From positions 129,172 to 193,171 of the forward strand of contig CADADB010000001.1 in the NCBI GenBank assembly GCA_902786595.1: a stretch of 64,000 bases of DNA, in the 5' to 3' direction. A model generated the notes under the pieces. That model saw only the letters and a list, made by a program, of their open reading frames with translations. It did not search any database and was not told the DNA's origin. The stretch is from an uncultured Bacteroidota bacterium (GTDB lineage: Bacteria > Bacteroidota > Bacteroidia > Bacteroidales > WCHB1-69). The translations under genes and the position numbers were made by a program. This document shows, one piece after another, positions 4,082 through 60,145 of the stretch; within the stretch, counting starts at the first letter, position 1, and the number at the start of each line of letters is the position of its first letter.

Positions 4082-4693
4082 ATGAAGTTCATTTGTATCG
4101 GGCGGAATTATGCGGCACATGCGGCGGAGTTACATAATGCGGTTCCGTCTCAACCGGTATTCTTCCTGAAACCGGAATCGGCAATTACCCGCTGCAATCG
4201 TCCTTTCTTTTTACCTGATTTTTCAGACGAGGTGCATTATGAAACCGAGATTATCGTGAAGATCAATCGGTTGGGGAAGTGTATCTCCGAAAAGTTTGCA
4301 CATAAATATTATGATGAAATCGGTCTCGGGGTGGATTTCACCGCCCGCGACATCCAGCGCAAGTGCATGGCCGAAGGAGAACCCTGGGAAATCGCCAAGG
4401 CCTTCGACGGCTCCGCAGTCGTGGGGAAGTTTGTCCCCAAAACCCGGTTTGCCGATGTGCAGGATTTGCATTTCCATTTGCTGCTGAATGGGGAAAAGGT
4501 ACAGTCCGGGCATACAAAAGATATGCTTTTCTCCATAGACACGCTCATTTCGTATGTTTCCCGCTTTATGACACTGAAGATGGGGGACATTTTGTTTACG
4601 GGCACTCCTGTTGGCGTGGGACCTGTCCATATCAACGACCATCTTCAGGGCTATCTCGAAGGTGAGTGCTTTTTTGATTTCAAAGTGAAGTGA
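4082..4693 (+). CDS. fumarylacetoacetate hydrolase family protein (YcgM-like)
   Basis: 203 residues, the compact single-domain form of the FAH family, which cleaves C-C bonds of acylpyruvates or decarboxylates oxaloacetate with a bound divalent metal. Visible signatures: start MKFICIGRNYAAHAAEL (family usual IGRNYxxHAxE), the metal-binding ETE of HYETEIIVKI, the GLGVDFTARDIQ segment, the EPWEIAKAFDGSAVVG stretch and the MGDILFTGTPVGVGPV motif near the C-terminus. True substrate is unknown. It follows the barrel gene by 5 nt. Its TGA stop is immediately followed by a heptad array. Confident of family, not of reaction. Confidence 0.88.
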   Translation: MKFICIGRNYAAHAAELHNAVPSQPVFFLKPESAITRCNRPFFLPDFSDEVHYETEIIVKINRLGKCISEKFAHKYYDEIGLGVDFTARDIQRKCMAEGEPWEIAKAFDGSAVVGKFVPKTRFADVQDLHFHLLLNGEKVQSGHTKDMLFSIDTLISYVSRFMTLKMGDILFTGTPVGVGPVHINDHLQGYLEGECFFDFKVK

Positions 4694-4725
4694 ACTGAGG
4701 ACTCAGGACTGTGGACTTGGGATAT
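4691..4725. repeat. 7-bp word array (GAGGACT type) starting at a stop codon
   Basis: Heptads GAGGACT, CAGGACT, GTGGACT directly after the TGA stop of the FAH-family gene. Confidence 0.65.
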
Positions 4726-4759
4726 AGGATTTTAGACATAAACTTAAACCAATAATATT

Positions 4760-6028
4760 ATGAACGTTAAAGTTAGACTCGTTCTTATGAATTTTCTCCA
4801 GTTTGCTGTCTGGGGAGCGTATTTGACCTGCATGGGCACCTATCTGCATATTCACGGATTGGGTCGTCAGATCGGCCTTTTTTATTCGATACAAGGTATT
4901 GTCTCTATTTTCATGCCTGCCATCATCGGCATTATCGCTGACCGTTGGATTCAGGCACAGAAAATGTTGGGAATAAGCCACTTGATTTCGGGTATGGCTA
5001 TGATTTGCGCCGGCCTCTATGGCTTGAGCGCGGGAGATGCGGTGCAGTTCGGCCCGCTGTTCACCTTATACACCATTGGTGTTGCGTTTTACATGCCCAC
5101 TATCGCGCTTTCCAATTCGGTGGCCTATTACGCACTGGAGGCGGCTGGTCTTGACCGGGTGAAACATTTTCCGCCGATCCGTGTTTTCGGTACCATAGGA
5201 TTTATTGTTTCTATGTGGTGCGTGGACTTGTTGGGATTCCAACCGACGGCCAGTCAGTTTGTGATGAGTGGAGGCATCGGCCTGGTGCTGGGATTGTATG
5301 CTTTCACCCTGCCGAAGTGCAACAGCAACAACGACGGCAAAGTCACCTCTCTGGTGGATATGTTTGGGTTGCGTGCGTTCACTCTTTTCAAACAGAAGAA
5401 AATGGCGGTTTTCTTTATTTTCTCCATGTTGTTAGGAGTATCGTTGCAGATCACCAACGGATTCGCCAACCCGTTCCTGCATAGTTTTGGTCATATCGCC
5501 GAATATGCCGACACCTTCGGTGTGAAACACGCTAACATGCTGATTTCCTTGTCGCAAATCTCCGAAACGTTGTGTATCTTGCTGATTCCCTTCTGTTTGA
5601 AGAAGTTCGGCATAAAGAAAGTGATGTTGATCGCCATGTTCGCTTGGGTGTTGCGCTTCGGATTCTTCGGATTGGGTAACCCCGGCCCTGGCGTATGGCT
5701 TTTCATCCTGTCCTGCATCGTCTATGGTGTCGCTTTCGACTTCTTCAATATCAGCGGTTCGCTGTTCGTGGACCAGCAGACCGATGCTTCCATTCGCTCT
5801 TCCGCTCAAGGTTTGTTCATGCTGATGACCAACGGCATAGGTGCCACCTTAGGTACTTTTGGCGCCCAACTGGTACTTAACCATTTTGTCTTCAACCCGT
5901 TAAAGAATGGCGCTGAACCGACCACCATTATGCAAGGATGGTCCTCTGCATGGTATGTTTTCGCCGCCTACGCCTTTGTGGTTGCAGTGACGTTCATCTT
6001 CGCGTTCAAAGAAGAGAAAAATAATTAG
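4760..6028 (+). CDS. nucleoside:H+ symporter (NupG/XapB family MFS transporter)
   Basis: 422-residue inner-membrane protein with about 12 hydrophobic segments, the length usual for the Nucleoside H+ Symporter family of the major facilitator superfamily. The start MNVKVRLVLMNFLQFAVWGAYLT and the phrase GLFYSIQGIVSIFMPAIIGI (about residues 39-58) are typical of NupG-like carriers, as are the ASIRSSAQGLFMLMTNGIGA segment and the loop PIRVFGTIGFI. It should import nucleosides by proton symport. No TAnnTTTG box is visible in the 66-bp spacer, so it may be read from the upstream unit. The TAG stop lies inside a heptad array. Confidence 0.87.
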   Translation: MNVKVRLVLMNFLQFAVWGAYLTCMGTYLHIHGLGRQIGLFYSIQGIVSIFMPAIIGIIADRWIQAQKMLGISHLISGMAMICAGLYGLSAGDAVQFGPLFTLYTIGVAFYMPTIALSNSVAYYALEAAGLDRVKHFPPIRVFGTIGFIVSMWCVDLLGFQPTASQFVMSGGIGLVLGLYAFTLPKCNSNNDGKVTSLVDMFGLRAFTLFKQKKMAVFFIFSMLLGVSLQITNGFANPFLHSFGHIAEYADTFGVKHANMLISLSQISETLCILLIPFCLKKFGIKKVMLIAMFAWVLRFGFFGLGNPGPGVWLFILSCIVYGVAFDFFNISGSLFVDQQTDASIRSSAQGLFMLMTNGIGATLGTFGAQLVLNHFVFNPLKNGAEPTTIMQGWSSAWYVFAAYAFVVAVTFIFAFKEEKNN

Positions 6029-6068
6029 CTTTTAGCTTTTAGCTCTTGGCTTTTGGCTTTATTTTAGC
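6026..6068. repeat. 7-bp word array (TTTTAGC type) containing a stop codon
   Basis: Heptads TTTTAGC, TTTTAGC, TCTTGGC, TTTTGGC. The TAG stop of the nucleoside transporter is part of the first unit. Confidence 0.7.
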
Positions 6069-22006: not shown

Positions 22007-22073
22007 CATTAACCCTCTAACCTCATAACTCTAACCCCAGCTTCAATAACCCATAACCCATAACCCATAACCA
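22007..22073. repeat. dispersed repeat with ATAACCC words, copy 1
   Basis: About 65 bp; reverse complement matches 45089-45155 at high identity, including the non-repetitive part around TTGAAGC and GGGGTTA. The internal heptad is ATAACCC. The array ends 3 nt before the ATG of the kinase gene. Confidence 0.75.
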
Positions 22074-22075
22074 TT

Positions 22076-24932: not shown

Positions 24933-26138
24933 ATGGCAAGAGTACTCATCATCGGAGCGGGCGGCGTTGGTTCCGTCGTGGCTCACAAATGCGCTTCCGT
25001 ACCGGAAGTTTTCACTGAAATCATGCTGGCTTCGCGTACGAAGGCGAAATGCGACGCTATCGCTGCGCAGATTGGCGGCAACCGTATCCAGACGGCCCAA
25101 GTTGATGCCGACAACGTAGAGGAGACCGTTCGTCTGCTCGAAAGCTACAAACCCGACTTGCTGATCAACGTGGCGCTGCCCTATCAGGATCTGCCCTTGA
25201 TGGACGCCTGTCTCGCTACGAAGACCAACTACATGGACACCGCCAACTACGAGCCCCGCGACAAAGCGAAGTTCGAATACAGCTGGCAGTGGGCCTACCA
25301 CGACCGTTTCAAAGAGGCCGGCATCATGGCCCTCCTCGGCTGCGGCTTCGACCCTGGTGTGACCAGCATCTACACGGCCTACGCTGCCAAACACTATTTC
25401 GACGAGATGCACTATCTCGATATCGTGGACTGCAATGCCGGTGACCACGGCAAGGCGTTCGCCACTAACTTCAACCCCGAAATTAATATCCGTGAGATCA
25501 CCCAACGCGGCAAATATTGGGAGAATGGACAGTGGGTGGAGATTGACCCGATGTCAATCCATCGCCCCGTTGAGTACCCGAATATCGGCGATCGTGAATC
25601 GTATCTGCTTTATCATGAAGAACTTGAGTCTCTCGTGAAGAGCTACCCGACCATCAAGCGTGCCCGTTTCTGGATGACTTTCGGACAAAAATACCTTACC
25701 GTGCTGAACGTGCTGCAGGAAATCGGCATGACGAGCATCAAACCCATCAACTACAAGGGCATGGAGATTGTGCCGCTGCAGTTCCTGAAGGCGGTGCTGC
25801 CGGAACCTTCCTCTCTTGGTGAGGGCTATCATGGACAGACCTCCATCGGCTGCCAGATCAAGGGTATAAAGGATGGTAAAGAACGCACTTACTATGTCTG
25901 GAACAACTGCGATCACGCCGAATGTTTCAAGGAAGTGGGCGCACAGGCCGTTTCCTACACCACAGGTGTGCCCGCCATGCTCTGCGCGAAGATGATTCTC
26001 ACTGGAAAATGGCAGGGGAAGGGTGTCTTCAATGTCGAACAGTTTGATCCGGATCCCTTCATGAACGAGATCGGCGGTTACGGCCTGCCTTGGAACGAAC
26101 AGATCGACCAGCCGCTGCCCGTGTACAAACATGAGTAA
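24933..26138 (+). CDS. carboxynorspermidine (carboxyspermidine) dehydrogenase, saccharopine dehydrogenase family
   Basis: 401 residues. NADPH-dependent enzyme that condenses a diamine with aspartate semialdehyde in the alternative spermidine pathway common in gut Bacteroidota. N-terminal Rossmann signature VLIIGAGGVGSVVAHKCA; LLINVALPYQDLPLMDAC and CGFDPGVTSIYTAYA are typical of the family, as is the C-terminal VNVEQFDPDPF-type ending. Length matches known enzymes. The decarboxylase partner (nspC) is not in this window. The TAA stop merges into a heptad array. Confidence 0.88.
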   Translation: MARVLIIGAGGVGSVVAHKCASVPEVFTEIMLASRTKAKCDAIAAQIGGNRIQTAQVDADNVEETVRLLESYKPDLLINVALPYQDLPLMDACLATKTNYMDTANYEPRDKAKFEYSWQWAYHDRFKEAGIMALLGCGFDPGVTSIYTAYAAKHYFDEMHYLDIVDCNAGDHGKAFATNFNPEINIREITQRGKYWENGQWVEIDPMSIHRPVEYPNIGDRESYLLYHEELESLVKSYPTIKRARFWMTFGQKYLTVLNVLQEIGMTSIKPINYKGMEIVPLQFLKAVLPEPSSLGEGYHGQTSIGCQIKGIKDGKERTYYVWNNCDHAECFKEVGAQAVSYTTGVPAMLCAKMILTGKWQGKGVFNVEQFDPDPFMNEIGGYGLPWNEQIDQPLPVYKHE

Positions 26139-26174
26139 GACGTAGGACGTGTGACGTAAGACGTAAGAAAGACG
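26136..26174. repeat. 7-bp word array (ACGTAAG type) at a stop codon, left arm
   Basis: Units GACGTAG, GACGTGT, GACGTAA, GACGTAA start with the TAA stop of the preceding gene. 26153-26168 is a perfect 16-nt inverse of 27063-27078, so the pair flanks the 26244-27032 gene. Confidence 0.75.
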
Positions 26175-27032: not shown

Positions 27033-27080
27033 GTTTCAAGTTTCAGGTTCTCAAGTCTCACGTCTTACGTCTTACGTCTA
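27030..27080. repeat. 7-bp word array (TTTCAAG and CTTACGT types), right arm
   Basis: Units TTTCAAG, TTTCAGG, TCTCAAG, TCTCACG, TCTTACG, TCTTACG. It spans the whole spacer from the TTG start of the propeller gene to the TAG stop of the OmpP1-like gene. Confidence 0.75.
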
Positions 27081-28535: not shown

Positions 28536-28595
28536 TCCAAAGTCTTATGTTTCAAGTTTCAGGTTTCAAGTCTCAAGTCTTACGTCTCAAGTCTA
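28536..28595. repeat. 7-bp word array (TTTCAAG / TCTCAAG type)
   Basis: Units TTTCAAG, TTTCAGG, TTTCAAG, TCTCAAG, TCTTACG, TCTCAAG. Starts at the TAG stop of the lipoprotein gene and shares words with the 27030 array, across the OmpP1-like gene. Confidence 0.7.
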
Positions 28596-30289: not shown

Positions 30290-31765
30290 ATGGCAAAAAA
30301 TTTTTGTACAAGAGATGAGAATTATTCACAGTGGTATAATGACATTGTGAAGAAAGCGGATTTGGCAGAGAACTCCTCAGTTCGAGGTTGTATGGTGATA
30401 AAACCCTACGGATATGCCATTTGGGAGAAAATGCAGCGTCAACTGGACCAAATGTTTAAAGATACAGGCCATTCTAATGCCTATTTCCCGATTTTTATTC
30501 CAAAATCGTTTTTCAGCCGTGAGGCCAGCCATGTGGAGGGATTCGCCAAAGAGTGTGCGGTGGTAACACATTACCGGTTGAAAAATGACCCCAATGGTGG
30601 GGGAGTAGTGGTCGATCCCGATGCCAAACTGGAAGAAGAACTTATTGTGCGTCCCACTTCCGAAACCATTATCTGGGATACCTATAAAAATTGGATCCAG
30701 TCATACCGTGACCTTCCGATTCTCTGCAACCAGTGGGCGAATGTTGTTCGTTGGGAGATGCGCACCCGCCTTTTCCTCCGTACCGCCGAGTTTCTCTGGC
30801 AAGAAGGACACACCGCTCACGCTACTCGTGAGGAAGCGCTTGAGGAAACCGACAAAATGATCCACGTATATGCCGATTTTGCGGAAAAACACATGGCCAT
30901 TCCGGTCATCATGGGCGTCAAATCCCCGAACGAACGCTTCGGCGGTGCTCTTGACACCTACTGCATCGAAGCGTTGATGCAAGACGGAAAGGCCCTGCAG
31001 GCCGGTACTTCCCACTTCCTCGGTCAGAATTTCGCCAAAGCATTCGACGTGAAATTCCTCAACCAAAAGAATGAACAAGAATATGTATGGGCTACCTCCT
31101 GGGGCGTTTCCACCCGTTTGATCGGAGCCCTTATCATGACGCACTCTGATGACAACGGTCTTGTCTTGCCGCCGGTTCTCGCCCCCATTCAAGTCGTTAT
31201 TGTACCGATTTACAAGACCGATGAGCAACGTGAACAGATTGCAGCTAAGGCAGATACGCTTGTGCAAAAACTGAAAGCGCTCGGCATCGCTGTCAAGTTC
31301 GACAACGACGACACGAAGCGCTCCGGATGGAAATTCAACGAATATGAACTCAAGGGCGTTCCTGTGCGTGTGGCTATTGGACCGAAAGATATGGAAAACA
31401 ACGAGGCCGAAGTCGCCCGCCGTGACACGATGGAGAAATACAATGTCTCTTTCGATGCTTTAGTGGAGCATATTCAGAAACTTTTGGATGAAATCCAGCA
31501 GAATTTATTCAACAAGGCGTTAAAATTCCGTGAAGAGCACACCTATAAGGCCGACACTTGGGATGAATTTGTCGATTTGCTGGACAACAAGCCCGGCTTT
31601 GTGTATGCACACTGGGACGGCACTCCTGAAACCGAAGAGAAAATCAAGGATCTCTGCAAAGCGACCATCCGCTGCATCCCGTTCAACAACCCGCAAGAGG
31701 AAGGCAAGTGTATCCTGACAGGAAAACCGTCACATCAACGTGTCCTTTTCGCCCGTGCGTACTAA
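30290..31765 (+). CDS. proS: prolyl-tRNA synthetase, archaeal/eukaryotic type
   Basis: 491-residue class II synthetase that charges tRNA-Pro. Signatures: [31 protein letters not shown], motif 2 region [24 protein letters not shown] and the motif 3 region [18 protein letters not shown] with following [11 protein letters not shown]. The C-terminal part ends VLFARAY, as in the archaeal-type enzyme without the bacterial editing insertion. Complete. The TAA stop is the first unit of a 6-bp word array. Confidence 0.96.
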
Positions 31766-31871
31766 CAATAACAATAACTATAACTATAACCAGGACTAAG
31801 AACACTCATAGTCAATAGTCATAGTCATAGTTATAGTCATAGTTATAGTCATAGTCATAGTCATAGTCATG
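31763..31871. repeat. 6-bp word arrays (ATAACA/ATAACT then ATAGTC/ATAGTT)
   Basis: 31763-31791 repeats ATAACA, ATAACA, ATAACT; 31805-31871 repeats ATAGTC and ATAGTT about ten times. The array begins with the proS stop and ends with the mazG start codon (ATAGTC-ATG). The unit is 6 rather than 7 bp. Confidence 0.75.
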
Positions 31872-41000: not shown

Positions 41001-44000
41001 CCGCTCAAGCTTACTATCCGGAAGGCAGCGATTGCGAAGGCGATTTCGACTACAGATGGCACAAAGAATGCCACAACGTGTACTTCGATGGCGCTACCGC
41101 TCCTGTTGCTACGGATGAGGAAATGTGCTGTTACTACACTGTAACTGCTACCAACCAATTAACAGGATGTACTGCTGTTGAGCGTGTTGAAGTCTGTGTC
41201 TATGCTGCTCACTCCATTGTTTACACGGTTGATCTTGAGCCCATCACTGGCAATTCTACCACAGTTTGTGAGAATGAAGATCTGACTATCGGTGTTGTTC
41301 ATAACGGTTGGGAGCAGGCATGGTGGACGATGAACCATGTGACTGATACGACTGTTATCAATCCTGAATATGAGTTCTTCGTTAGCACTGCTGACTCAGT
41401 GGCTGCATACCAAGATGTTGCTAACAAGTGGAAATTCAACAAGAATATCACGTTCTGTCTCGATGTGGTTGACACCAACGGATGTCATGCTACTGGTTTG
41501 TTCAATTTAGTTATCAATCCTCTTGTTCGTCTCACGAATGAGGAGACTGTCTGTGAACTTCCGACTCTCGATGGCTATGACATCGACGAGGAACTGATGG
41601 CTGCCATCAACGATGGTACTGTTGAGTATCCGTATTCTGTCAGCCGTGTTGATACGATTCCTGCTGTTGAGGAGGGTTGTGACACTGTCTTGACGACCAT
41701 TCTTACTGTGATGGGTTATCCGACCATCACTGGTGAAGTTGAGGATTCTTTCTGTGAGGGAACTACTATCGCTGAGGTTATTGAGAACATCACCATCACT
41801 AATGCTGCAGAGGGTTCTGTTGTCATGACGTTGAATGGCGAAGAAGTTGACGAAACCCATGTCCTTGAGTTCAATCCTGATGGCTATTCCTTGAATATCT
41901 CTTGCTACTCCTATTCTGATCCGGAGACGCAGATGATTTGTGGCGCATCCGAAGATTATGACTTCAGTGTTACCAAGAAACCTTATGTGGAATCTGTTAT
42001 ATTACTCGATACACTTTGCGCTGGCGGTGAGGTCGAAATTGATGTTCCTTATTATGAGTGCAATAGTGTAAACGGATGTACGGTTAGCGTTGTCATGGTG
42101 GATTCCACCGATGCTGAGAATGTGGTTGTTACGGTTCTTGAAGAGAACTTTGAAGAAGATTCTTATCTCCTTGACCCGGTTAAGCTGTCCTACAATGGCA
42201 TGTATATCGGCTTCAAGGTGGAGAACGAATGTGACGATACCACTGTTCTTGCTAAGTTGAATGTGGACACGATTCCTGTTGGTCAAGTGAATGCGGCTGC
42301 AATCTGCGCTAATCAGACTATCGATGCTTCATATACTATCACCAATACGGATGATTTGTTAGATGTTGACAATATTGTTGTGACCGCATACTTGAAGAAG
42401 GTCAATGATGCTGATTTCAGTATCTTTGATTTGAGCCAGACTGTGGACTATACCTTCAATGGTGCTGAGTTGTATTATGAACTCTGGAACATCCGTTGCG
42501 GTTACTCTAATACGGATATAGCAACTATCACGGTTAACGATAAACCTACTATCCATATCAATGTTCAAGGTTTGTCTGTCTGTGCAGATGAGTTCGAGGA
42601 ACAATTTGCCGCTACATTCGGCAGCTACATTCCTAGCCCGACACCGGTTGAGAATCCTACTATCTTGGAGCAACAATTTGAGCCCATGAAGTATGATGCT
42701 GGTGTTCCGGTTCCGGAAGATCTGTCAACAATTGATGAGTTCAACTATGTCTTGGCAAATGGTACTCCTTTCATAAGCACCTATTGGGCGATTGCTACTT
42801 TGGATGAAGATGGTAATATTGTTTCCCTGAATCCTGTTTCAGTTGAAGAAATCAAGACTTTGGCAACCGATACTTGTATTGACATTTATTACTTTGCTTC
42901 TAATGCTTGTGGTAATGACACAGTTGGACCGTTGCAGGTGTGTATCACAGATGCTCCTGAAATCACTTACACTACAGGTGACATCTGTCTCACTTCTACG
43001 GTGTCTGAAGTGTTGAATATTACCAATATTGAATGGCATAAGAGTCAATATTGGTCCGGCTACACGCTGCATTATCCTTCTGATGGTATGCAGATGATGA
43101 TGGTTGAACCCAATACGACAATTGCTAGTTTGGTTGACTACAACGGTTACAAACTTGTCTTCTCTGCCGTGAACGAATGTGATTCTGTTGGAGTTGAAAT
43201 CGTCTTGAATATCCCGACTTGGGAAGTTGAAGAGGGTACAATGAAACCTGCTTGCGTTGGTTCTCAATTCTCCGAGTTCATTGAAGCAGCTCCTTCTATC
43301 ACTTATGAAAATGTTACGATTGAATCTGAGGGCTGGTATGTTCTCAATGCTGATGCTACAACAGCCACTGAGGATGAAGCTATCGAACTCACAACAGTTG
43401 TGAATGAACCTATTGAGGTTTACTACAAGTGGGTTACCTCTTGTGAAGACATTATCACTTCTGATACGATGACGCTCGAGCTTCTCTATCAACCTGAGGT
43501 TACTATCAACGACATTACCATCTGTGCTGGTTCTACTGTTGACCTTGCCGAAGCTAATCTGAATGTTGTTGACAATTACAACGTGGTTAACGGTGATCCT
43601 ACTTGGACAATCAACGGTGAGTCATGGTCTGCAACCAACATCTACGGTGACGAGTATGACAATACAGACATTGTTGTTACCGTTCCGAGCGAATGTGGTG
43701 CAGTCACTGCTACTGCTAAGTTGCATGTCAATCCTAATCCTGAGGTTGAAATCACTGGTGAGGATGTTTGCGCTGGTGCTGAAGCAACGTTCACCGCAAC
43801 TCCTGGATTTGCATCCTACACGTTCACGTTGGATGGTGGTGAACCTGTCACCCAAACCGACAACGTGTTCATCCAGACCTTGGATGTTGATGAAACTCTG
43901 AATTCATTCCATACGGTTACTGTTTCTGTGGTTGACGAGAATGGTTGTGCAAGCACTGTTGATGGCAGTGTGACTGTTAAGGCAACTGGAGCTCCTCAAT

Positions 44001-45031
44001 TCACCTTCAAGACTATGGATGGAACTGAAACGCATCAATTTGAAGCTCTATCTGGTGATTTGTTCCCGTATATTTGGATGGTTGGTGGCGAATGTAACAA
44101 CGAAGACTTGTTAGTCTATGTTGAATACGACATCTACTACAATGACCAACTGCTCACTTTGAATAATCTCAATGAATATTTCTGCGTACAGAACACTGAT
44201 ATTAATAGTGCTTCTAACGTAGAATGGAACACTTCAAATTCATTCGTTTACTACGATAATAATAACAATTATCAATTCGACCTCTCTTATTATCTTGGCG
44301 CTTCTGCTAACGTTGCTAACAATTATAATCCTTATGGTAACCACTTCCCGTATTCTACGATTGTTCACGGTGGTTTCACCACGTCAAACTACTATGATGA
44401 TCTTTGGATGCACTTCCTCAGAAATCGTGAGATTACACAAACGGTTGCTCCTATGAAACTTCCGGGCGAGTATAAGATAGTGTTCAGACTGTATCAAACG
44501 AATCGTCCTAATAACTATCAAAACTCCCATACGGATGTTGATGGCGTCATTTGTCCGGAAGGTTATACCTATGGACAACATCCAGCAGCTGCTATTGGTG
44601 GTGGCGGATTCAACACGATCAGCCAAGGACAAGATCCTATTCTTACTTTACTTGCAATAGACTCCATTACTATTGATGTTACAGGTGCTGAACTTGTTGA
44701 GTGTGTTCCTGCAACTGCTCCTGCTCTTGCTCCTAGTTTGACTGTGGATGCTGGCAAGATTGCTCCTGAGATGGAAGTTTGGCCGAACCCGGCTCCTGCT
44801 ATCACAACCACGCTGAAGGCACGTGTTCATAACATGAGCGGTGACGCTACGGTTACGCTGAATTCTCTCAGCGGTACGCAGATCTATGCTGGTAAGACCT
44901 ACATCGACAGCGATAACTACTACTTCGAATTTGATGTTAACAACCTGAGCGTCGGTTCTTACATCTTGACCGTGCGCACCAACGATGCTATCATCACTAA
45001 GAAAGTGGTTGTGTCTGCCTTAGCTCGCTAG
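35072..45031 (+). CDS. giant T9SS-secreted multidomain surface protein with SprB-like repeats
   Basis: 3319 residues. Signal peptide MKKLLSICFLSMLLGLLSFG...RAQ. The N-terminal ~280 residues form a unique domain with many Cys. About 290-1240 consists of Ig/PKD-like modules. From about 1250 to 1980 there are eight repeats of about 75-100 residues, each opening with a Cys-centred phrase: PNHRCEFPYDG, NDPTYCTNDNG, GNTLCGGENFNG, PNQYCDNEEG, TICDNQIAPYDG, PNTMCAPTFDHPGNG, PNKNCIAPFDG and PNHACVEGLYDG, resembling SprB-type gliding-adhesin repeats. About 1980-3000 has more Ig-like modules with CAGSTVDL-type openings. The last ~80 residues (MEVWPNPAPAITTTLKARV ... SYILTVRTNDAIITKKVVV) are a type A T9SS sorting domain. 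Codon use is strikingly rich in GTT, ACT, GCT and GAT. Likely a cell-surface adhesin. Confidence 0.85.
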   Translation: MKKLLSICFLSMLLGLLSFGVRAQNDNGCTSGFWIENLQPDTIYGVVNMPPDGKLPLIHTLGSGHFNTSGVFQGNATVGNTELYELHFCNTCGLDPKTKVSIDWVLLQNVNGEWVEVNDHLSNYVQMGIFTFYNHLNQYGECQSIQWLGGRVFDGFGYCDDQTIGSGNTLLDTMAGVNGPCFDPTNYPGAMHVEQGTPMAVLSQLGQIVPAAGQVNIYSQNHDYFYLDFFEQTRNIVVLNWKQAGNYKLVMRVRQRLGGTPWMNEFWKQNPDGTMSEVDYVGGHQSCCGPVLVEDTIGYPTFGEDMKEVCADANAEDPFVYGRPPYTFTETMPDTNVVFGEYRGEDPSACFYFHTDSVNRFHFFVRENPQVQAQDIAICKCTEFGQNELNALVTMADTANKGVVDVRFEWATNANGPWSVTIPTPPTAVGVYHFFVRQVNIYQTIECIGDPAEIVLTINELPAPTGGAYDICNESEDATLTMTVSRAADVNNCSNTSVWFLGDEAVHTGDIYNVTLADIRPETNVDKVVTYHVYAYNSTTDCYSAEYSIVTLTFHQTPTIHLSYLDTICPHADNVIFTMLITSTQTEYPYTVNQVSDFDGNVNDVLNTPNISLTTEYSKPYSKIEDFICDSVYHLYYTVTDGNGCFVKDTATFIAKDVIAPSVEPATWAQTFNICNFEGVNRPDTIKEIEGFDGLTSVSDYCGIDHFTCKDSTYVVSACENVLVRTYTFYDYCNNASTFTQTFTAHDSTAPYFVGVEGRPIYERLAAKRDTNCTFNSLTKAEFVMAFLGKVEDNCVEFDSAYLYDHSDFYWEESSRFGHVLAYETPDIFRDMVGNQLTVEVVVWDDCYNMADTLAFWFEPDTLKVGAPVINPNSICLGDTAFLTFDSNTVDFGIHFEVAHPLTFQWGSLENDSIINFTEVDSVTAAVSPLMGDAYYHVNMTVTDAYGCSATSEYARVYVKDNPHVVIVPVTENGGELPYCPTVGRVHLVVVSAEDSTFVPNLTYQWTSSQSLDISSYGDTAGLYVLPILCSHIYDAQVFVTDTIYGCTATASILIPVEDKAPIYIGEEHHDIVPVVDSCKMRVTDFTHYVNAATIDNICGWPFERYTIWQEPAVGTEMTVNTPVTVFIKTPCDEDVVAISDKFVALVDTNRIIVTATVDPREGCSPTLFTFDASSERAIGPVTYTWTKGTTVMSNAQSFSNVETVEEGVPVSVYVYQVEAVDSVGCKSTDTVHVTVNETLPIPEYEVFPNHRCEFPYDGIIRLIDMPKGYVYELFNEQDVLVDAIITQIPVFDYEVPTTSIIFDELEGDRTYTVKITTTAGCVTEFDIYVPDARQNPEFNNEITTNDPTYCTNDNGSIVINNQQGFTYYVFDSNGDEILAPYIDLVVGNYTIVKVDNLTACDTDTVVTINPSAATLTFQVTTTGNTLCGGENFNGTLTFTKANIQYVVTNENNEVIYEGLAATVDGLAPGLYHIHGTDLITGCENTIDKQVPNNTVNPVFTVTPAPNQYCDNEEGLVNGHVTIAATTTYTYAFYTEEDVVVTDPTHLSAGNYYVVATDANGCQTEHEFEIVDATVVPVVDDSTVVNTICDNQIAPYDGKVILTITNYNVNNKPYTVTLDTLDAEGVAHAIFTSEDVTSPVTFNSLNSGTYHYTVTDKYMCVAEGLVEVDTAVRPELLLTQTPNTMCAPTFDHPGNGTITVLPPYDDYESGNFSYAYYYAPVGMFEPGDTLHVDYHNLTQTMFHLIDSLYYVTVLDNRTGCITADTITVELGRDTVLATGIPTPNKNCIAPFDGTIQLHTIYKRYAFDYTVNPYLFIPDPGYKFSIDNGLTYQTDSLFTGLADGVYYVTVLDTNTGCLYNEFDSIVVEKTENDIVIVPTVTPNHACVEGLYDGTITVTATSEMFNPAQFEYSFQGGEFSTVNTWNALAPDVYHIVAREIVSGCENSIDVTINTENECTPIIDVDVRKYCLNEENATITAQAYYPEGSDCEGDFDYRWHKECHNVYFDGATAPVATDEEMCCYYTVTATNQLTGCTAVERVEVCVYAAHSIVYTVDLEPITGNSTTVCENEDLTIGVVHNGWEQAWWTMNHVTDTTVINPEYEFFVSTADSVAAYQDVANKWKFNKNITFCLDVVDTNGCHATGLFNLVINPLVRLTNEETVCELPTLDGYDIDEELMAAINDGTVEYPYSVSRVDTIPAVEEGCDTVLTTILTVMGYPTITGEVEDSFCEGTTIAEVIENITITNAAEGSVVMTLNGEEVDETHVLEFNPDGYSLNISCYSYSDPETQMICGASEDYDFSVTKKPYVESVILLDTLCAGGEVEIDVPYYECNSVNGCTVSVVMVDSTDAENVVVTVLEENFEEDSYLLDPVKLSYNGMYIGFKVENECDDTTVLAKLNVDTIPVGQVNAAAICANQTIDASYTITNTDDLLDVDNIVVTAYLKKVNDADFSIFDLSQTVDYTFNGAELYYELWNIRCGYSNTDIATITVNDKPTIHINVQGLSVCADEFEEQFAATFGSYIPSPTPVENPTILEQQFEPMKYDAGVPVPEDLSTIDEFNYVLANGTPFISTYWAIATLDEDGNIVSLNPVSVEEIKTLATDTCIDIYYFASNACGNDTVGPLQVCITDAPEITYTTGDICLTSTVSEVLNITNIEWHKSQYWSGYTLHYPSDGMQMMMVEPNTTIASLVDYNGYKLVFSAVNECDSVGVEIVLNIPTWEVEEGTMKPACVGSQFSEFIEAAPSITYENVTIESEGWYVLNADATTATEDEAIELTTVVNEPIEVYYKWVTSCEDIITSDTMTLELLYQPEVTINDITICAGSTVDLAEANLNVVDNYNVVNGDPTWTINGESWSATNIYGDEYDNTDIVVTVPSECGAVTATAKLHVNPNPEVEITGEDVCAGAEATFTATPGFASYTFTLDGGEPVTQTDNVFIQTLDVDETLNSFHTVTVSVVDENGCASTVDGSVTVKATGAPQFTFKTMDGTETHQFEALSGDLFPYIWMVGGECNNEDLLVYVEYDIYYNDQLLTLNNLNEYFCVQNTDINSASNVEWNTSNSFVYYDNNNNYQFDLSYYLGASANVANNYNPYGNHFPYSTIVHGGFTTSNYYDDLWMHFLRNREITQTVAPMKLPGEYKIVFRLYQTNRPNNYQNSHTDVDGVICPEGYTYGQHPAAAIGGGGFNTISQGQDPILTLLAIDSITIDVTGAELVECVPATAPALAPSLTVDAGKIAPEMEVWPNPAPAITTTLKARVHNMSGDATVTLNSLSGTQIYAGKTYIDSDNYYFEFDVNNLSVGSYILTVRTNDAIITKKVVVSALAR

Positions 45032-45089: not shown

Positions 45090-45192
45090 AATGGTTATTG
45101 GTTATGGGTTATGGGTTATTGAAGCGGGGTTATAGTATATAAGGTTAGAGGGGTAGAAGGTTATGGTTAAGGTTATGTCTAAGTCATAGTTT
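45089..45192. repeat. dispersed repeat with GGTTATG words, copy 2
   Basis: 45089-45155 is the inverse of 22007-22073 with high identity; further GGTTATG and GGTTAAG words follow to about 45180. It fills the spacer before the ABC exporter gene. Confidence 0.75.
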
Positions 45193-46982: not shown

Positions 46983-47037
46983 ATTTCCTTGAGCAGCCCC
47001 GGTAGGGGCAAGAGCTCGGTAGAAATTAGAAATATAA

Positions 47038-47082: not shown

Positions 47083-47754
47083 ATGGCAAAACATAAATTG
47101 GCAAGATTCGCGGAGAACGCGACATTTGGGAATTTGTTCCAACATACGGAATACGATAGGATAGGGGAGGCGTTCCCGTTGCGGGGGCGTTGGCGGGAGG
47201 ATTATTTCCACAATGACCGACCGATAGTGCTTGAGTTGGGCTGCGGAAAGGGAGAATACACGCTTGCGATGGCGAAGCGTTTCCCCGAGCGTAATTACGT
47301 CGGCATAGACCGGAAGGGGGCACGGTTGTGGCGCGGCTGCAAGGATGCGATCGAGCAGGGATTGGACAATGTGGCGTTCCTGCGCATTACCATCGATCAT
47401 ATAGAGCAATATTTTGCGCTTGGAGAGGTGGATGAGATCTGGGTGACCTTCCCGGACCCGCAGATCAAGAAGGAGAGGAAACGGTTGGTCGGACCTCATT
47501 TCGTCAATGATTATTACCGCAAAATCTGGCCCGAAAACGGCGGTGCTTTGCACTTGAAGTCCGACAGCGACTTCCTGTACGAATATCTTCTGGAAACGGC
47601 TGCAGAGCAGCGTTGGGAGCTTGTCGAAAATATTCCTGACGTTTATACCGGCGGAGCCGATCCGTTGCTCACCGAGGTGCAGACGTTCTACGAGAAGATG
47701 TGGTTGGCGGAAGGGAAGACGATACACTATGTGCAATTAAGAATTAAGAATTAA
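47083..47754 (+). CDS. trmB: tRNA (guanine-N7)-methyltransferase
   Basis: 223 residues, normal length. Uses SAM to methylate G46 of tRNAs. The SAM-binding motif VLELGCGKGEYTLAMAKR, the NYVGIDRKGARL loop, and the signature EIWVTFPDPQIKKERKRLVGPHF are diagnostic. It ends HYVQLRIKN; RIKN and the TAA are encoded by AATTAAG words of the following array, as in the exporter just upstream. Confidence 0.96.
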   Translation: MAKHKLARFAENATFGNLFQHTEYDRIGEAFPLRGRWREDYFHNDRPIVLELGCGKGEYTLAMAKRFPERNYVGIDRKGARLWRGCKDAIEQGLDNVAFLRITIDHIEQYFALGEVDEIWVTFPDPQIKKERKRLVGPHFVNDYYRKIWPENGGALHLKSDSDFLYEYLLETAAEQRWELVENIPDVYTGGADPLLTEVQTFYEKMWLAEGKTIHYVQLRIKN

Positions 47755-47766
47755 GAATTAAGAATG
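47734..47766. repeat. 7-bp word array (AATTAAG type) spanning the trmB stop
   Basis: Four near-perfect AATTAAG heptads. The TAA stop at 47752-47754 is inside. Confidence 0.75.
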
Positions 47767-49701: not shown

Positions 49702-49782
49702 GCGATTTGCGATTTACGATTTACGGTTTGCGGTTTGCGATTTTCGATTTACCGCAAACCGTAAATCGCAAAACGTAAACCG
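49700..49782. repeat. 7-bp word array (TTTGCGA / TTTACGA type) with inverted arms
   Basis: TGCGATT, TGCGATT, TACGATT, TACGGTT, TGCGGTT, TGCGATT, then ACCGCAA, ACCGTAA, ATCGCAA, AACGTAA, ACCG. It starts in the gcvT terminator and touches the TAA stop of the opposing kinase gene. Confidence 0.8.
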
Positions 49783-50415
49783 TTATAGCGGGTATTTCCG
49801 ACGGACGTTTTCGGCGAGGAACTGTGCCACCTGGTCGGTGGTGAAGCCCGACACGTTGAGGACCATGTCGTAGTTGCGGGCGTCGTAGCGGGAGGTGCCA
49901 GCGAAAGACTTGGTGTAGTTCTCGCGGGCTTTGTCGGCGCGTTCCATGATGTCGCGGGCGCCTTTCTCGTTCACGCCTTGCCGATCCATCAGTCGTTTTA
50001 TGCGGCATTCGGGATTGGCGATGATGAGCAGCCGCATGGCGTCGGGATTGTCCTTGAAAATGTGGAATCCAGTGCGTCCCACGATGATGCAGGACTCCTG
50101 TTCGGCAAGATTGCGAAGGATTTGTTCCTCTTCGGCGTAGAGTTGCTTCGAATCGACCTCGAATGAGTCGTAAGCAATGGCGGCTGTGGTGCCGAATTGC
50201 TTGTAGAAGCGGCAGAAATCCGCCCACCAGCCCGGTTTCGTCGCCTTGATTTTCTCGACATCCTCATGAGTCAGGTTGTACTTTTCGAGGATGGAGGCGA
50301 GAATTTCCTTGCCGTATACTTTCACACCGAGCAGCTTGCCCAATTTTTCGGCGATTTCTTTCCCTCCGGAACCCGCCTCGCGGTTGATGGTGATGACGAA
50401 TTTCTGATTTTCCAT
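49783..50415 (-). CDS. cytidylate kinase-like family protein
   Basis: 210 residues of the Cytidylate_kin-like family (PF13189), relatives of CMP kinase. The P-loop NREAGSGGKEIAEKLGKLLG (about residues 11-30) is clear; the FxVDSKQLYAEEEQILRNLAEQESCIIVGRTG segment and the NPECRIKRLMDRQGVNEKGARDIMERADKAR lid follow. It should be a P-loop NMP kinase but the physiological substrate of this branch is unknown. Own promoter at 50448-50455. Confidence 0.85.
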   Translation of the reverse strand: MENQKFVITINREAGSGGKEIAEKLGKLLGVKVYGKEILASILEKYNLTHEDVEKIKATKPGWWADFCRFYKQFGTTAAIAYDSFEVDSKQLYAEEEQILRNLAEQESCIIVGRTGFHIFKDNPDAMRLLIIANPECRIKRLMDRQGVNEKGARDIMERADKARENYTKSFAGTSRYDARNYDMVLNVSGFTTDQVAQFLAENVRRKYPL

Positions 50416-51055: not shown

Positions 51056-51124
51056 TTACGGTTTACGGTTTACGATTTACGATTATTCGAGTACCGTAAA
51101 TCGCAAATCGTAAATCGTAAATCG
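51056..51124. repeat. 7-bp word array (TTTACGG / AAATCGT type), left copy of a 27-nt direct repeat
   Basis: Forward words TTACGGT, TTACGAT, then reverse words AAATCGC, AAATCGT, AAATCGT, AAATCG. Segment 51098-51124 is identical over 27 nt to 51562-51588. It begins at the guaD stop. Confidence 0.8.
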
Positions 51125-51561: not shown

Positions 51562-51597
51562 AAATCGCAAATCGTAAATCGTAAATCGTAAATTGCA
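51562..51597. repeat. 7-bp word array (AAATCGT type), right copy of the 27-nt direct repeat
   Basis: AAATCGC, AAATCGT, AAATCGT, AAATCGT, AAATTGC; 51562-51588 equals 51098-51124. It ends 6 nt before the ATG of the next gene. Confidence 0.8.
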
Positions 51598-52412: not shown

Positions 52413-52496
52413 GCCGAAGTGGTGGAATGGTAGACACGAGGGACTTAAAATCCCTTGCTTATTGCAAGCGTGTGGGTTCAAGTCCCACCTTCGGTA
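52413..52496 (+). tRNA. tRNA-Leu (anticodon UAA)
   Basis: Acceptor GCCGAAG pairs with CTTCGGT (one G-U), discriminator A. The anticodon arm AGGGA-CTTAAAA-TCCCT gives anticodon UAA at 52446-52448. A long variable arm (class II) and a standard T-arm GTGGGTTCAAGTCCCAC are present. CCA is not fully encoded. Confidence 0.95.
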
Positions 52497-52502
52497 CCGA
52501 AT

Positions 52503-52575
52503 GCGGAAGTAGCTCAGTTGGTAGAGCACAACCTTGCCAAGGTTGGGGTCGCGAGTTCGAGTCTCGTTTTCCGCT
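52503..52575 (+). tRNA. tRNA-Gly (anticodon GCC)
   Basis: Acceptor GCGGAAG with TTTCCGC, discriminator T. The anticodon arm CAACC-TTGCCAA-GGTTG gives GCC. D-arm GCTCAGTTGGTAGAGC and T-arm with GTTCGAGTC are standard. 73 nt, 6 nt after tRNA-Leu, so co-transcribed. Confidence 0.96.
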
Positions 52576-55649: not shown

Positions 55650-57719
55650 ATGCTATCTTTCAAAGACAAATATCAATTCGCCAAGAAGGAAGTCCTGAAG
55701 ATTATCATTGCTCTTTCCGCATTGATGATCGTCAGTCTAATCTACTATTTACATATTCGGCAAGAGGCACTTTTTGTTGCCGTAAAGCGGGCGGAGGCCA
55801 CCTTGGAAAACACGGAAAAGACAATACTCATCCGTATGGGGAAGATTGAGACCATTGTGAATTCCATACAACCTATGGTGGAATATGCTCTTGACGACCC
55901 TGATGCGATGTTCGACATAGCCCGTCACACCGTGGAGTCCAGTTCCCGAATCATGGGCTCGGGCATTGCGTTCAAAGAGGGTTACTTTCCCGAAAAAGGG
56001 CGTTGGTTCGAGGTTTACGTAGGATATCAGAAAGGCGATGACACATTGGTTGCCAGGCAGATAGGTGGCCCGAACCATGACTATCTCCAAAAGGAATGGT
56101 TTCAGGAAGGGATAGCATCCCAGAAGGGAATTTGGAGTGACCCGTATTACGACAATGCAGGCGGAATGACATTCCTGATGACCTACAGTGTTCCCGTCAG
56201 AGACGAGGAAGGTGAGGTGGTGGGTCTCATCGGCGCGGATATCGCGGTTGACACCTTCGTGAGTATCATTCGAGGTATAAAACTCTATCCCAACAGTTTT
56301 TGCACATTAGTTGCCGGCGACGGCACAACGTTGGTGCCTCCTCCGTCAAAGACCCCTAAAGGCAAGTGTCATGTCTTCTCGGAGGAGATTGACGGCAAGA
56401 ACCTGAAGTTGACTATCACCATTCCGGATGCCGACATGTACAAGCGTTTACGGCAATCCACCGCGTTTTTCGTGATTTTGGCTCTTTCAGGCATTTTGAC
56501 GGTGTTCTTCATTGCCTATCGCTCTGTACAGAACTTGTGGAAGTTAAACGAGGTGCGTGCCAAGGAGCAACACATTGAGGACGAACTCGCCATCGCCCGC
56601 CACATCCAGCAGTCGCTGTTGCCGTCCGATTCTCTTCCAGACATCGCCCAAAAAGTCGATATCAGCGGTTTGCAAGTGCCAGCCAAGTTTGTGGGCGGTG
56701 ACTTGTATGATTACTACATTCGCGACAACAAACTCATCTTCTGCATCGGCGATGTTTCCGGCAAAGGGGTCCCCGCCGCTTTGCTGATGGCCATCGCGCA
56801 TAGTCTGTTCCGCACCATTTCCGCTCACAGTGACCAGCCGGATCACATCACGAGGGAACTCAACCGTTCCATCAGCGACAACAATCCTGACATCATGTTC
56901 ATCACGATGTTCCTCGGGGTGCTTGATTCGGAAACCGGGCTCGTGACCTATTGTAATGCGGGACATAATCCGCCTGTTCTCCTCCAATCGGGAGAGGCAG
57001 GATATTTGGAGTTGGCGGACAATTTGCTGATTGGGGTGGAAAAAGATACGGAATATTCGTCCAGAACTCTGCAGTTGGGCGATGGGGACACGCTATTCCT
57101 CTACACTGACGGTCTGACCGAAGCCGAAAACACGCAAAAAGAACTTTTTGGAGAAGAAAGAGCGCTTGAAATTGCCCAAAAGTTATGTGGGGCGTCTGCT
57201 GAAGAACAGATTAAAGCTATGCAATCGGCCGTGAAGCAGTTTGTGGGCGATGCCGAGCAGAGCGATGATCTTACGCTGCTTGCTATACGCTATCTATCTA
57301 CTAAAGAGCAACTTACTTTGACCAATGACATTCAAGAGTTGGAGCGTCTGGAACCATTCTTGGAGAATTTTTTCAACAGGAACAATTTGGATGTGACCCT
57401 ACTGCCCAGTGTCAACCTCGCTTTGGAGGAGGCGTTGGCCAACGTCATCATGTATGCCTACCCTAAGGGTGTGCAAGGCGAAGTGACCCTCTCCACCAAT
57501 ATTAAAGGTGAAGATATTCTCATGGAAATCAAAGATAAAGGGGCTCCTTTCGACCCATTGCAGCAGCAGCAGGCCAACCTTGATGTTCCCCTTGAGGAAC
57601 GGCAAATCGGCGGGTTGGGTATTCATCTCATCAAGGAAATTATGGATGGAGTGGAATATGCGCGTGCAGATGGGAAGAATGTGTTGAAGATGCGGAAAAA
57701 GTTAGCAGTTAGTAGTTAG
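55650..57719 (+). CDS. membrane sensor PP2C phosphatase (SpoIIE) fused to an RsbW-type kinase domain
   Basis: 689 residues. Transmembrane helices at about 16-35 and 271-292 bracket a periplasmic Cache sensor (WFEVYVGYQKGD, SDPYYDNAGGMTFLMTYSVPV, GLIGADIAVD). The cytosolic part has a short coiled helix (EQHIEDELAIARHIQQSLLPS), a SpoIIE PP2C domain (FVGGDLYDYY, IGDVSGKGVPAALLMA, DGLTEAEN, QSDDLTLLAIRY) at about 330-545, and a HATPase_c_2 domain (LALEEALANVIMYAYP, GGLGIHLIKEIMD) at about 555-685. Such proteins control STAS antagonists by dephosphorylation and phosphorylation. A STAS gene follows. The last residues LAVSS and the TAG are written by GTTAGCA words. Confidence 0.88.
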   Translation: MLSFKDKYQFAKKEVLKIIIALSALMIVSLIYYLHIRQEALFVAVKRAEATLENTEKTILIRMGKIETIVNSIQPMVEYALDDPDAMFDIARHTVESSSRIMGSGIAFKEGYFPEKGRWFEVYVGYQKGDDTLVARQIGGPNHDYLQKEWFQEGIASQKGIWSDPYYDNAGGMTFLMTYSVPVRDEEGEVVGLIGADIAVDTFVSIIRGIKLYPNSFCTLVAGDGTTLVPPPSKTPKGKCHVFSEEIDGKNLKLTITIPDADMYKRLRQSTAFFVILALSGILTVFFIAYRSVQNLWKLNEVRAKEQHIEDELAIARHIQQSLLPSDSLPDIAQKVDISGLQVPAKFVGGDLYDYYIRDNKLIFCIGDVSGKGVPAALLMAIAHSLFRTISAHSDQPDHITRELNRSISDNNPDIMFITMFLGVLDSETGLVTYCNAGHNPPVLLQSGEAGYLELADNLLIGVEKDTEYSSRTLQLGDGDTLFLYTDGLTEAENTQKELFGEERALEIAQKLCGASAEEQIKAMQSAVKQFVGDAEQSDDLTLLAIRYLSTKEQLTLTNDIQELERLEPFLENFFNRNNLDVTLLPSVNLALEEALANVIMYAYPKGVQGEVTLSTNIKGEDILMEIKDKGAPFDPLQQQQANLDVPLEERQIGGLGIHLIKEIMDGVEYARADGKNVLKMRKKLAVSS

Positions 57720-57727
57720 CAGTTGTT
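57701..57727. repeat. 7-bp word array (GTTAGCA type) spanning a stop codon
   Basis: GTTAGCA, GTTAGTA, GTTAGCA, GTTGTTG. It encodes the C-terminus of the SpoIIE fusion and its TAG. Confidence 0.7.
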
Positions 57728-58116: not shown

Positions 58117-58118
58117 CG

Positions 58119-58682: not shown

Positions 58683-58717
58683 TATTAATGATAGTCATAA
58701 ACCAAACAAGAAATAGT

Positions 58718-60091
58718 ATGCATGATTTTTACCACAGAAGTAACCGATGGATATTGACTGTTTTCGCCATTCTGGCGACAGTTGTGATGCAGGCCCAAAC
58801 AGAAATAATCGATTATGAAATTCCGCCCATTCCGGATAATGAGTTTACGATTGACGCCAGACTGAACACCCGTGGAGAGATCCGTGTCGGTGGTTTCGAT
58901 CCCGAGATAGAAGAGGAGGGCAAATCCCCGAAAGCCCAATTCATCATGGGCCAATACAGGATCAACCTTGGATACAAGCGGTCCGACTGGTTCGAAATGA
59001 GACTCTCGCCTCAGTTCTCTGGTATTTGGGGACAGGCCGGTGGGACACTGAGTCTTGCCGAAGGATGGTTTTCGATGAGACATAACAAAACCGGGCTTTT
59101 CGCCAAAATCGGCCGGCAAGTGTTGGAATACGACGACGAGCGTATCTTGGGTTACGATGACTGGACCATGACCGCGCCCACCCACGACGTGCTGAAATTC
59201 GGTTTTGAGGGTTACGGTCACAAAGTGCACGCGCTTCTGGCTTACAACCAGAATAGCGACAATGTGTCTGCCGGAACCAGCTATTATGCCGGTGGAATAC
59301 AACCATATAAGACCATGCAGGCGCTTTGGTATCACTATACTACCCCAAAATCAATTTTTGAGATATCATTACTCGGCATGAACGTCGGCATGCAGAGTCT
59401 GAAGTCGGAAAAGCCGGACAAGACCTTCTACCAACAGCTGTTTGGTACCTATATGGTCTTGAGCCCTAGCATTGTAAGGTTGGAGGGCGCCTTCTACTAC
59501 CAATTGGGCAAGGAGGAACACGGCATCCCGTTGAACGCCTATATGGGAAGTGCGAAACTCAAGGTTACGCCGAACGACATCTACAACCTCTATGTCGGAT
59601 ATGACTATATGAGTGGTGACAAGTACTTTGCTGTTCCGGCGGGAGGGAACCTCGGCATGGTTTACCACGATGTGATTCGGGGCTTCTGTCCTATTTTCGG
59701 CTCTCACCATGAATTCTACGGCGCCATGGACTTCTTCTATGTGGACAGTTATGTGGGCGGATTCACCCCTGGTTTGCAAAATCTCTACACCGGCGGTTCT
59801 GTCAGTCCTGTAAAGGGTTTGAACATCAATGCCGCTTACCACTTCTTCGCTATCGCCACCAACCTCGAAAAGCTGAAAAAGCCGTTGGGTCATGAGATCG
59901 AGTTGTCGCTCAACTACTCCTTTGCGAAATTTGTCAGAGTGGGAGCTGGTTACTCCTATATGCGCGGCGCCGAAACGATGGAGAAGCTCCAGCACGTGTC
60001 CGATAATCGCCAATTGCATTGGGGATGGGTAATGCTGTCCGTCACCCCTACCATCTTCACACACGCTTGGAACGACAAGAAGAAACAATAG
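58718..60091 (+). CDS. outer-membrane porin, alginate-export-family-like
   Basis: 457 residues. A signal peptide (WILTVFAILATVVMQAQ) precedes a long barrel with alternating strands and many aromatic girdle residues; phrases such as FAKIGRQVLEYDDERILGYDDW and GFEGYGHKVHALLAYNQNS resemble Alginate_exp / OprE-type porins (PF13372). It may import or export small molecules. Starts at 58718 (MHDFYH) or 58688. It precedes the NRPS without a visible terminator, so it may be co-transcribed. The TAG stop is directly followed by a word array. Confidence 0.72.
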   Translation: MHDFYHRSNRWILTVFAILATVVMQAQTEIIDYEIPPIPDNEFTIDARLNTRGEIRVGGFDPEIEEEGKSPKAQFIMGQYRINLGYKRSDWFEMRLSPQFSGIWGQAGGTLSLAEGWFSMRHNKTGLFAKIGRQVLEYDDERILGYDDWTMTAPTHDVLKFGFEGYGHKVHALLAYNQNSDNVSAGTSYYAGGIQPYKTMQALWYHYTTPKSIFEISLLGMNVGMQSLKSEKPDKTFYQQLFGTYMVLSPSIVRLEGAFYYQLGKEEHGIPLNAYMGSAKLKVTPNDIYNLYVGYDYMSGDKYFAVPAGGNLGMVYHDVIRGFCPIFGSHHEFYGAMDFFYVDSYVGGFTPGLQNLYTGGSVSPVKGLNINAAYHFFAIATNLEKLKKPLGHEIELSLNYSFAKFVRVGAGYSYMRGAETMEKLQHVSDNRQLHWGWVMLSVTPTIFTHAWNDKKKQ

Positions 60092-60145
60092 ACATTGGCT
60101 ATTGGCTGTTAACAGTTGGCGTAAGGCTAAAAGCCAAAAGCCAAG
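60092..60145. repeat. word array (TTGGCTA / AAAAGCC type) between porin and NRPS
   Basis: Forward words ATTGGCT, ATTGGCT and reverse words AGGCTAA, AAGCCAA, AAGCCAA. Same vocabulary as the arrays at 2500 and 6026-6139, over 50 kb away. Confidence 0.7.

Follow-up and report, generated by a model that had tools for sequence, protein, structure and literature searches.

We analysed a window of 64,000 nucleotides (nt) from the genome of an uncultured Bacteroidota bacterium (assembly GCA_902786595.1, contig CADADB010000001.1, positions 129,172 to 193,171; 2.84 Mb in 40 contigs; G000 below), in which short tandem arrays with a period of seven nucleotides lie at gene ends. Among named genomes, the nearest to it on the basis of one protein are assemblies of uncultured Bacteroidales, RUG083 and Reindeer_1_mag_206 for example. 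An earlier note on the window had listed 13 genes whose arrays start exactly at the stop codon. The arrays and related elements concerned are given below, with gene ends called by a caller written for this analysis, and with gap values and overlaps into genes counted to the end of the stop codon, such that a gap of -20 means 17 nt before the stop.

4694..4717, forward strand: weak heptamer array after the stop of the FAH gene (TGA, 4691-4693); lag-7 score 8, gap 0
6025..6060, forward strand: GCTNTTR array, with the nucleoside-transporter stop TAG (6026-6028) as first triplet, in register
22043..22075, reverse strand: element of the TTATGGG family, its AATGG end adjoining the start codon at 22076
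26135..26168, forward strand: GACGTAA-type array in register with the carboxynorspermidine dehydrogenase stop TAA (26136-26138)
27049..27079, reverse strand: array adjoining the OmpP1-like stop, read as ACGTAAG in the direction of the gene; sibling species have other families here
28549..28594, reverse strand: array abutting the lipoprotein stop
31763..31790, forward strand: period-6 array TAACAA, its first unit beginning with the proS stop
45090..45122, forward strand: element of the TTATGGG family, 58 nt past the stop of an open reading frame (ORF) of 3319 residues
46961..46980, forward strand: AATTAGN array encoding the last msbA residues and ending with the msbA stop; gap -20, score 10
47735..47765, forward strand: AATTAAG array encoding the tail LRIKN and the trmB stop; gap -20, score 24
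49751..49783, reverse strand: weak TTTRCGR array abutting the cytidylate-kinase-like stop; gap -1, score 8
51056..51084, forward strand: TTACGGT array from the first base past the guaD stop; gap 0, score 19
57700..57724, forward strand: AGTTAGC array from which the SpoIIE fusion takes its tail LAVSS and its stop; gap -20, score 12
60094..60107, forward strand: two-unit remnant near the porin stop; score 7, gap 2

The earlier observation is real and was over-stated, and is thus confirmed in part. At seven of the 13 gene ends an array edge falls between positions -4 and +2 of the stop, namely at the nucleoside transporter, the dehydrogenase, the OmpP1-like gene, the lipoprotein, guaD and, with weak arrays, the FAH and cytidylate-kinase-like genes. 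The other six do not fit: the arrays of msbA, trmB and the SpoIIE fusion (3/13) start inside the gene, 17 nt ahead of the stop, which in msbA marks the end of the array and not its beginning; proS carries the period-6 array and the porin the remnant, and the M23 gene end has no array at a lag-7 threshold of 7. Arrays were detected genome-wide at a lag-7 score of 11, below which very short arrays fall, such that the FAH and cytidylate-kinase-like arrays (score 8) are not counted in the genome-wide results.

Period seven stands far above all others. In 464 kb, comprising the window and 400 kb sampled from the genome, we found 108 places with lag-7 arrays, whereas every other lag between 3 and 12 gave 0-8, and none appeared in five rounds of block shuffling. 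Arrays hold about four units (median 4.4-4.7), which vary at few positions within an array, as in GCTNTTR, GACKTRA, TTTRCGR and TTATNGG. Genes are nearly free of them: 4 of 237 arrays lie inside genes, and in the stretch from 21 to 30 nt before the last base of the stop, arrays cover 0.3-0.5% of bases. Many arrays lie in mid-spacer or near starts, and 7-9% of bases 40-80 nt after stops are covered in G000. Among arrays assignable to a family, five inverted and two direct same-family pairs were found within 60 nt of each other; the guaD array has inverted partners at 51098-51124 and 51562-51593. Array lengths change by whole units between relatives, since 12 of 22 insertions or deletions within arrays between G000 and its sibling G020 were multiples of 7 nt, against 15 of 82 outside arrays.

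Array edges concentrate at stop codons with single-base sharpness. Using 500 kb of G000 (107 array-spacer overlaps) and a null of random placement within the same spacers (1000 rounds), we found 30 edges at positions -4 to +3 of stops where 8.4 were expected, with a null maximum of 16 and 0/1000 rounds reaching 30, while the other bins held 9 edges against 17.8 (-24 to -5), 9 against 8.6 (+4 to +12) and 16 against 23.2 (+13 to +40). An initial sample, for which the gene set was an earlier one and the bin wider, had given 37 edges at stops against 22.6 (maximum 34 in 2000). Placement at stops therefore exceeds chance, as the earlier note argued. At starts, three arrays reach positions -24 to -5 (null 0.3). 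The same boundary appears without calling arrays: across 367 genes, lag-7 identity per position was 0.23-0.33 in the last codons and reached 0.32-0.41 between the stop's first base and +23, with a value of 0.41 at position -9, a position compared with the stop codon itself, and no step at the stop was seen in these genes at lags 5, 6, 8 or 9. The rise at the first base of the stop occurs in both G000 and G020; in the 25 nt past stops, lag-7 identity was 0.379 in other siblings and 0.320 in array-poor relatives, a slight excess over other lags (0.28-0.30).

Array edges at -24 to +3 were found at 37 of 370 gene ends, or about one in ten, a scope that the earlier account lacked, as it did array-supplied stops with overrun into genes and polarity at starts. 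Its statement that the 3' untranslated region (UTR) consists of the array was too strong, because arrays cover 13-15% of the first 30 nt past stops in G000 and because the median array share of the spacer is 0.50 at 42 abutting junctions.

Abutting arrays are often in phase with the stop codon. Arrays were detected from the sequence downstream of the stop only, starting 0-3 nt after it, and were counted as in register when a stop-like triplet (T-purine-purine) was in phase with the stop; this was so for 37 of 73 arrays against 12.9 expected (maximum 26 in 5000). Register was found in 12 of the 14 arrays that extend into the gene and in 25 of the 59 that do not (null 10.1, maximum 21 in 4000), the latter including 10/27 from G000 (4.8 expected, p = 0.013) and 10/18 from siblings. 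Among 73 arrays starting 10-70 nt downstream no clear register was seen, with 14 in phase and 6-11 in the other phases.

Because 7 equals 1 modulo 3, a unit holding a stop closes every reading frame within 21 nt, that is, after at most six codons plus the stop, and arrays of such units can therefore overrun the last codons of a gene and supply its stop. The overlapping arrays reach at most 20 nt into the gene in 46 of 52 cases and at most 23 nt in 50, the longest reaching 29 nt, and their units hold a sense stop in 48/52 cases, compared with 35.5 for shuffled units. Protein tails encoded by arrays include LAVSS, LRIKN and LVISN, each ending in the stop. C-termini of the VSS or ISS type occur in 13 of 172 genes of siblings, in 4 of 258 in G020 and in 2 of 372 in G000, and none was found among 143 genes of array-poor relatives; many of the 13 sibling cases are genes orthologous to msbA, to trmB and to the gene ending at 32663.

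The arrays turn over between sibling species. Comparisons were made within the genus, in which we distinguish an array-rich group of about 16 species of uncultured gut Bacteroidales including G000, defined by trmB and proS identity and not by a tree; the genomes are uncultured assemblies where their records say so, and the sibling species are not independent. In sampled loci, array density was 36.1 per 100 kb in the array-rich group against 4.0 in other genus members. For a panel of 13 orthologous gene ends, picked from the window partly for having arrays there, the array-rich group had 35 stops with an array among 138 cases, and the other members one among 50; five of the panel ends, four of which the panel data bear out, had no array in any member examined, and guaD, the dehydrogenase and others had one. 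The same gene ends carry different arrays or none in siblings. The OmpP1 C-terminus GCKF is kept in 10 of 13 group members, while the following array is of the ACGTAAG, ACGTGAA, ACTTAAG, TGAGACT, TAACCCA or TAAGATT type or is lacking altogether, in which case the next ATG mostly follows after 1-7 bases (by eye). Turnover at trmB, whose end bears other array families in siblings, and at the gene ending at 32663 is similar. Several siblings have AGTTAGC-type arrays and VSS tails at the msbA end; heptamer arrays replace the period-6 array of proS in G016, G026 and G009; and the dehydrogenase array is shorter in G020, while other siblings, in which the C-terminus is identical or almost so, have a different array or none. 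In G020 the nucleoside transporter has no array and a different C-terminus. At the cytidylate-kinase-like end, G007 has 8-nt units of the CCTGTAAG type right after the stop, and some siblings have heptamers there.

Spacer growth accompanying arrays is clear at the msbA-trmB junction and, by eye, at OmpP1. General spacer inflation is weak and mixed, with median co-directional spacers of 83 and 119 nt against 50.5 nt, and junctions of at most 10 nt were not rarer (0.18 and 0.14 against 0.10).

Arrays at gene edges also have a strand polarity. Taking the G-rich strand as that with more G than C, and excluding 24 spacers in which one array touches both edges, this strand reads into the spacer in 84:15 arrays at stops and 33:3 at starts (one tie), so that its 5' end faces the gene at either kind of edge. 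Mid-spacer arrays nearer a stop have no polarity (17:22), those nearer a start lean inward (35:14; 4 ties in all), and in spacers with separate arrays at both edges 9 of 10 pairs converge (by eye). Since the polarity also holds at starts, where the array is antisense to the gene, the arrays are not just a 3' UTR matter. Selection on A/C-rich leaders may underlie the polarity at starts. G-quadruplex potential, taken as four GGG runs, was present in only 3 of 160 arrays.

One family, TTATGGG, behaves as a dispersed element with fixed ends, AATGG...TTATTGAAG, and a core of about 35 nt, with one match of 69 nt. In a first set, 19 of 26 copies have their AATGG end no more than 12 nt from a gene edge, and 2/26 have their other end there; on the stop side 9 of 11 copies are close, the two others being orthologous copies at 58 nt. 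In a second set of 48 copies, drawn from stretches covering 51 of 52 further matches, the AATGG end is near an edge in 33 (23 starts, 10 stops) and the other end in 1/47. All ten stop-side gaps of this set lie between -2 and 4, and in five of these copies the stop TAA consists of a T followed by the AA of the element. Of the 100 genomes searched, 40 belong to the genus and 21 of these carry the element, against 0/60 outside it. Copies away from starts (L163, L167, L173, L192, L198 and L199) often end against a CAAAGATACAATTTT-like sequence, the reverse complement of the TATCTTTG box, which we take to be the Bacteroidota -7 motif.

We observed directly that array edges peak at stops, that arrays tend to be in register with the stop, that those at gene edges are polar, that lengths change by 7 nt and that arrays turn over; the arrays may be born by stop duplication, microhomology copying, polar elements or the extension of broken ends. 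The reading that we cautiously favour is that heptamer families unstable in replication are anchored at gene edges, with the stop often serving as the first triplet, and that an array can replace the last codons and is itself turned over. Under this scheme a triplet resembling a stop (T-purine-purine) would seed a new array through duplication or microhomology, its family sequence perhaps copied from arrays elsewhere; selection would clear the coding side, removing anything deeper in the gene, such that the array may replace the last few codons and supply the stop; and arrays would then change in 7-nt steps until lost or replaced between species. Outward growth from the stop and trimming to the gene border, offered by the earlier note as alternatives, both leave traces and are each supported in part: the register (37/73 against 12.9) points to growth, and the scarcity of arrays inside genes (4/237) and just upstream of their ends (0.3-0.5%) points to trimming.

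Several results weigh against this reading. Edges are not significantly enriched at starts (8 against 4.4 at -4 to +3, 72/1000; 13 against 8.9 at +4 to +12), and at some junctions, msbA-trmB and OmpP1 among them, a tight ancestral spacer is enough to explain where the edge falls. About half of the abutting arrays are out of register, the register effect is modest in G000 alone, and in G020 alone it is not significant (5/14, p = 0.078). A first phase test using exact stops gave 11, 7, 5, 13, 9, 11 and 14 of 62, with no enrichment, and was replaced because its edge classes put in-register arrays into the overlap class; a stop-codon permutation test likewise found weak matches only, because the T common to all stops could not be credited. 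Units of abutting arrays have no excess of sense stops (28/45 against 25.7). Polarity at stops is 77:12 in arrays with a sense stop and 7:3 in those without, and may therefore follow from stop triplets, which hold no C. Finally, no clean empty site was found for the TTATGGG element at two unshared sites, for which no orthologous sequence was at hand, and seeding or copying has for this reason never been seen directly.

The sharpness of the edge peak bears first on an account by neutral slippage and purifying selection alone, in which arrays arise anywhere, coding DNA purges them, and the bases just after the stop are the least constrained. The near-absence of arrays in genes and their frequency in mid-spacer suit this account, as do the heptamer simple sequence repeats described as common in bacteria in the available parts of two papers (PMC4679880, PMC4692102), and selection on leaders could produce the polarity at starts, given that mid-spacer arrays lean inward near starts and not near stops. 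It predicts, however, a plateau past the stop, where we find 30 edges in the eight positions from -4 to +3 and 9 from +4 to +12, and it would not lead one to expect register in arrays that stay outside the gene; already weakened, it strikes us as unlikely. Somewhat better placed, if still doubtful, is the dispersal of polar short elements, by which at least the TTATGGG family inserts beside sequence at gene edges, in many cases T-rich, such that the AATGG end faces the gene. Its fixed ends, the placement of the AATGG end in both sets, the longer match of 69 nt and its presence in one genus only among the genomes searched argue for such dispersal, whereas the other families have no fixed 3' end (by eye) and the empty site is missing. 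As for the enzymes, a Y1-type (RAYT-like) transposase is present in 12/12 genomes, six array-rich and six not, and reverse transcriptases (4/12 genomes) do not track array load; with no correlation in these 12 genomes, both were rejected as drivers of the arrays.

That the arrays are selected 3' UTR devices, acting as frame-independent stop buffers, as terminators formed by inverted pairs or as mRNA-stability elements, appears improbable. Sense arrays with stops do close all frames, and some spacers hold inverted arrays of one family; yet array presence flips between close species with the same C-terminus, the array at starts is antisense to the mRNA, and a terminator-like hairpin is still present past the dehydrogenase array (no systematic terminator scan was made), such that a terminator role is not supported as a general account. 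The authors of a Xanthomonas study likewise say that they were unable to find a part for the repeats in gene regulation (PMC4692102). An artefact of ORF calling is the explanation hardest to credit. Arrays hold stops in several frames and would end any over-long ORF, the gene-overlapping units do hold stops (48/52), and the gene caller was home-made; against this, the C-termini of OmpP1, proS and the dehydrogenase match array-less orthologues, which refutes the artefact for genes with orthologues, and arrays found from downstream sequence alone still abut the stop in register. A more speculative idea, to which we give an outside chance, is that arrays are end-healing scars: at a chromosome break in a spacer, a polymerase that copies a template or slips would add G-rich heptamers to each 3' end, using the last bases of the gene edge, a stop codon or a T-rich leader, as primer, and the two ends would then be joined. 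If true, end healing would account for inward G-rich arrays at both spacer edges, the stop register, the fixed families and growth at tight junctions, and would amount to interstitial telomere-like repeats in bacteria.

Heptamer arrays, their stop content and slippage are already known. Mrazek and colleagues reportedly described, in 2007, long simple sequence repeats in prokaryotes with heptamers most abundant, and proposed polymerase slippage; period 7 dominates here as well, although in what is available of that work no gene-edge anchoring is described. REP elements and their RAYT partners are dispersed, intergenic and often near gene ends, and the REPs are palindromic units, whereas the arrays here read as tandem heptamers and do not track RAYT-like genes. 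The closest parallel is that of Rehm et al. (2015), who, in the available parts of their paper, describe G-rich heptamers, GGGAATC or GGGGA(C/T)T, in Xanthomonas and Nostoc, mostly of about four units with some variable positions, under-represented in genes, on the sense strand near stops and antisense near starts, closer to the 5' neighbouring ORF whatever its orientation, in some cases overlapping the stop, and varying extensively between close relatives (PMC4692102). Our arrays share the unit number, variable positions, gene avoidance, polarity, occasional stop overlap and variation; they differ from what is described there in their many families, the rarity of four GGG runs, their frequent register with stops and the C-terminal tails that they encode, and their distances are given at single-base resolution, where the available text bins them at 50 bp (PMC4692102). 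No GGGAATC doublet occurs in 840 kb (GGGGAYT was not searched). GGGAATC, a unit with no stop in that strand, follows the same polarity rule in that text, which bears on the stop-triplet account of polarity.

MacGregor et al. (2015), likewise available in part, describe TAACTGA direct repeats in Beggiatoaceae, Cyanobacteria and some Bacteroidetes, which have stops in all three frames, such that overlap with gene ends is limited to 18 nt, and which overlap a stop in 13 cases in one genome (PMC4679880). Stops in all frames and limited gene-end overlap are common to both systems; the TAACTGA repeats have a single unit and lie mostly just upstream of starts in forward sense in the material described (PMC4679880), whereas our arrays belong to many families, peak at stops and have their G-rich strand antisense at starts. 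TAACTGA doublets were absent from 840 kb. Given the same polarity in the unrelated heptamers of Xanthomonas and Nostoc, from two other phyla, the rules may reflect how heptamer arrays are born. As far as our literature searches show, the single-base edge peak, the stop register, the species-by-species replacement at gene ends and the agreement in polarity with other phyla are new; for stop register, no report was found in the literature searched, whose coverage leaves out most subscription papers. The rules of a peak at stops, register with the stop and a G-rich strand reading into the spacer can be tested in any genome, and the arrays offer a simple way for non-coding repeats to donate stops and short C-terminal tails to genes and for operon junctions to lengthen.

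An Rfam scan of the window returned two tRNAs only (52413-52575), and a single ORF of 3319 residues occupies positions 35072-45031. Heptamer arrays occur sporadically in other Bacteroidota (L051, L063, L072, L079 and L088), for example TTAGATG in Thermophagus xiamenensis. A dispersed hairpin repeat, TTGAGCAGCCCCGNNAGGGGCAAGAGCTNGGTAG, lies in spacers of the window (46989-47022) and of other stretches of G000, with six copies of its core in 464 kb. Palindromes of the GTAGGGACGTGCCAT..GGCGCGTCCCTAC and GTAGAGACGC..GCGTCTCTAC types recur after gene ends, at 26188-26216 in the window and in other spacers of G000 and G020, and differ between species.

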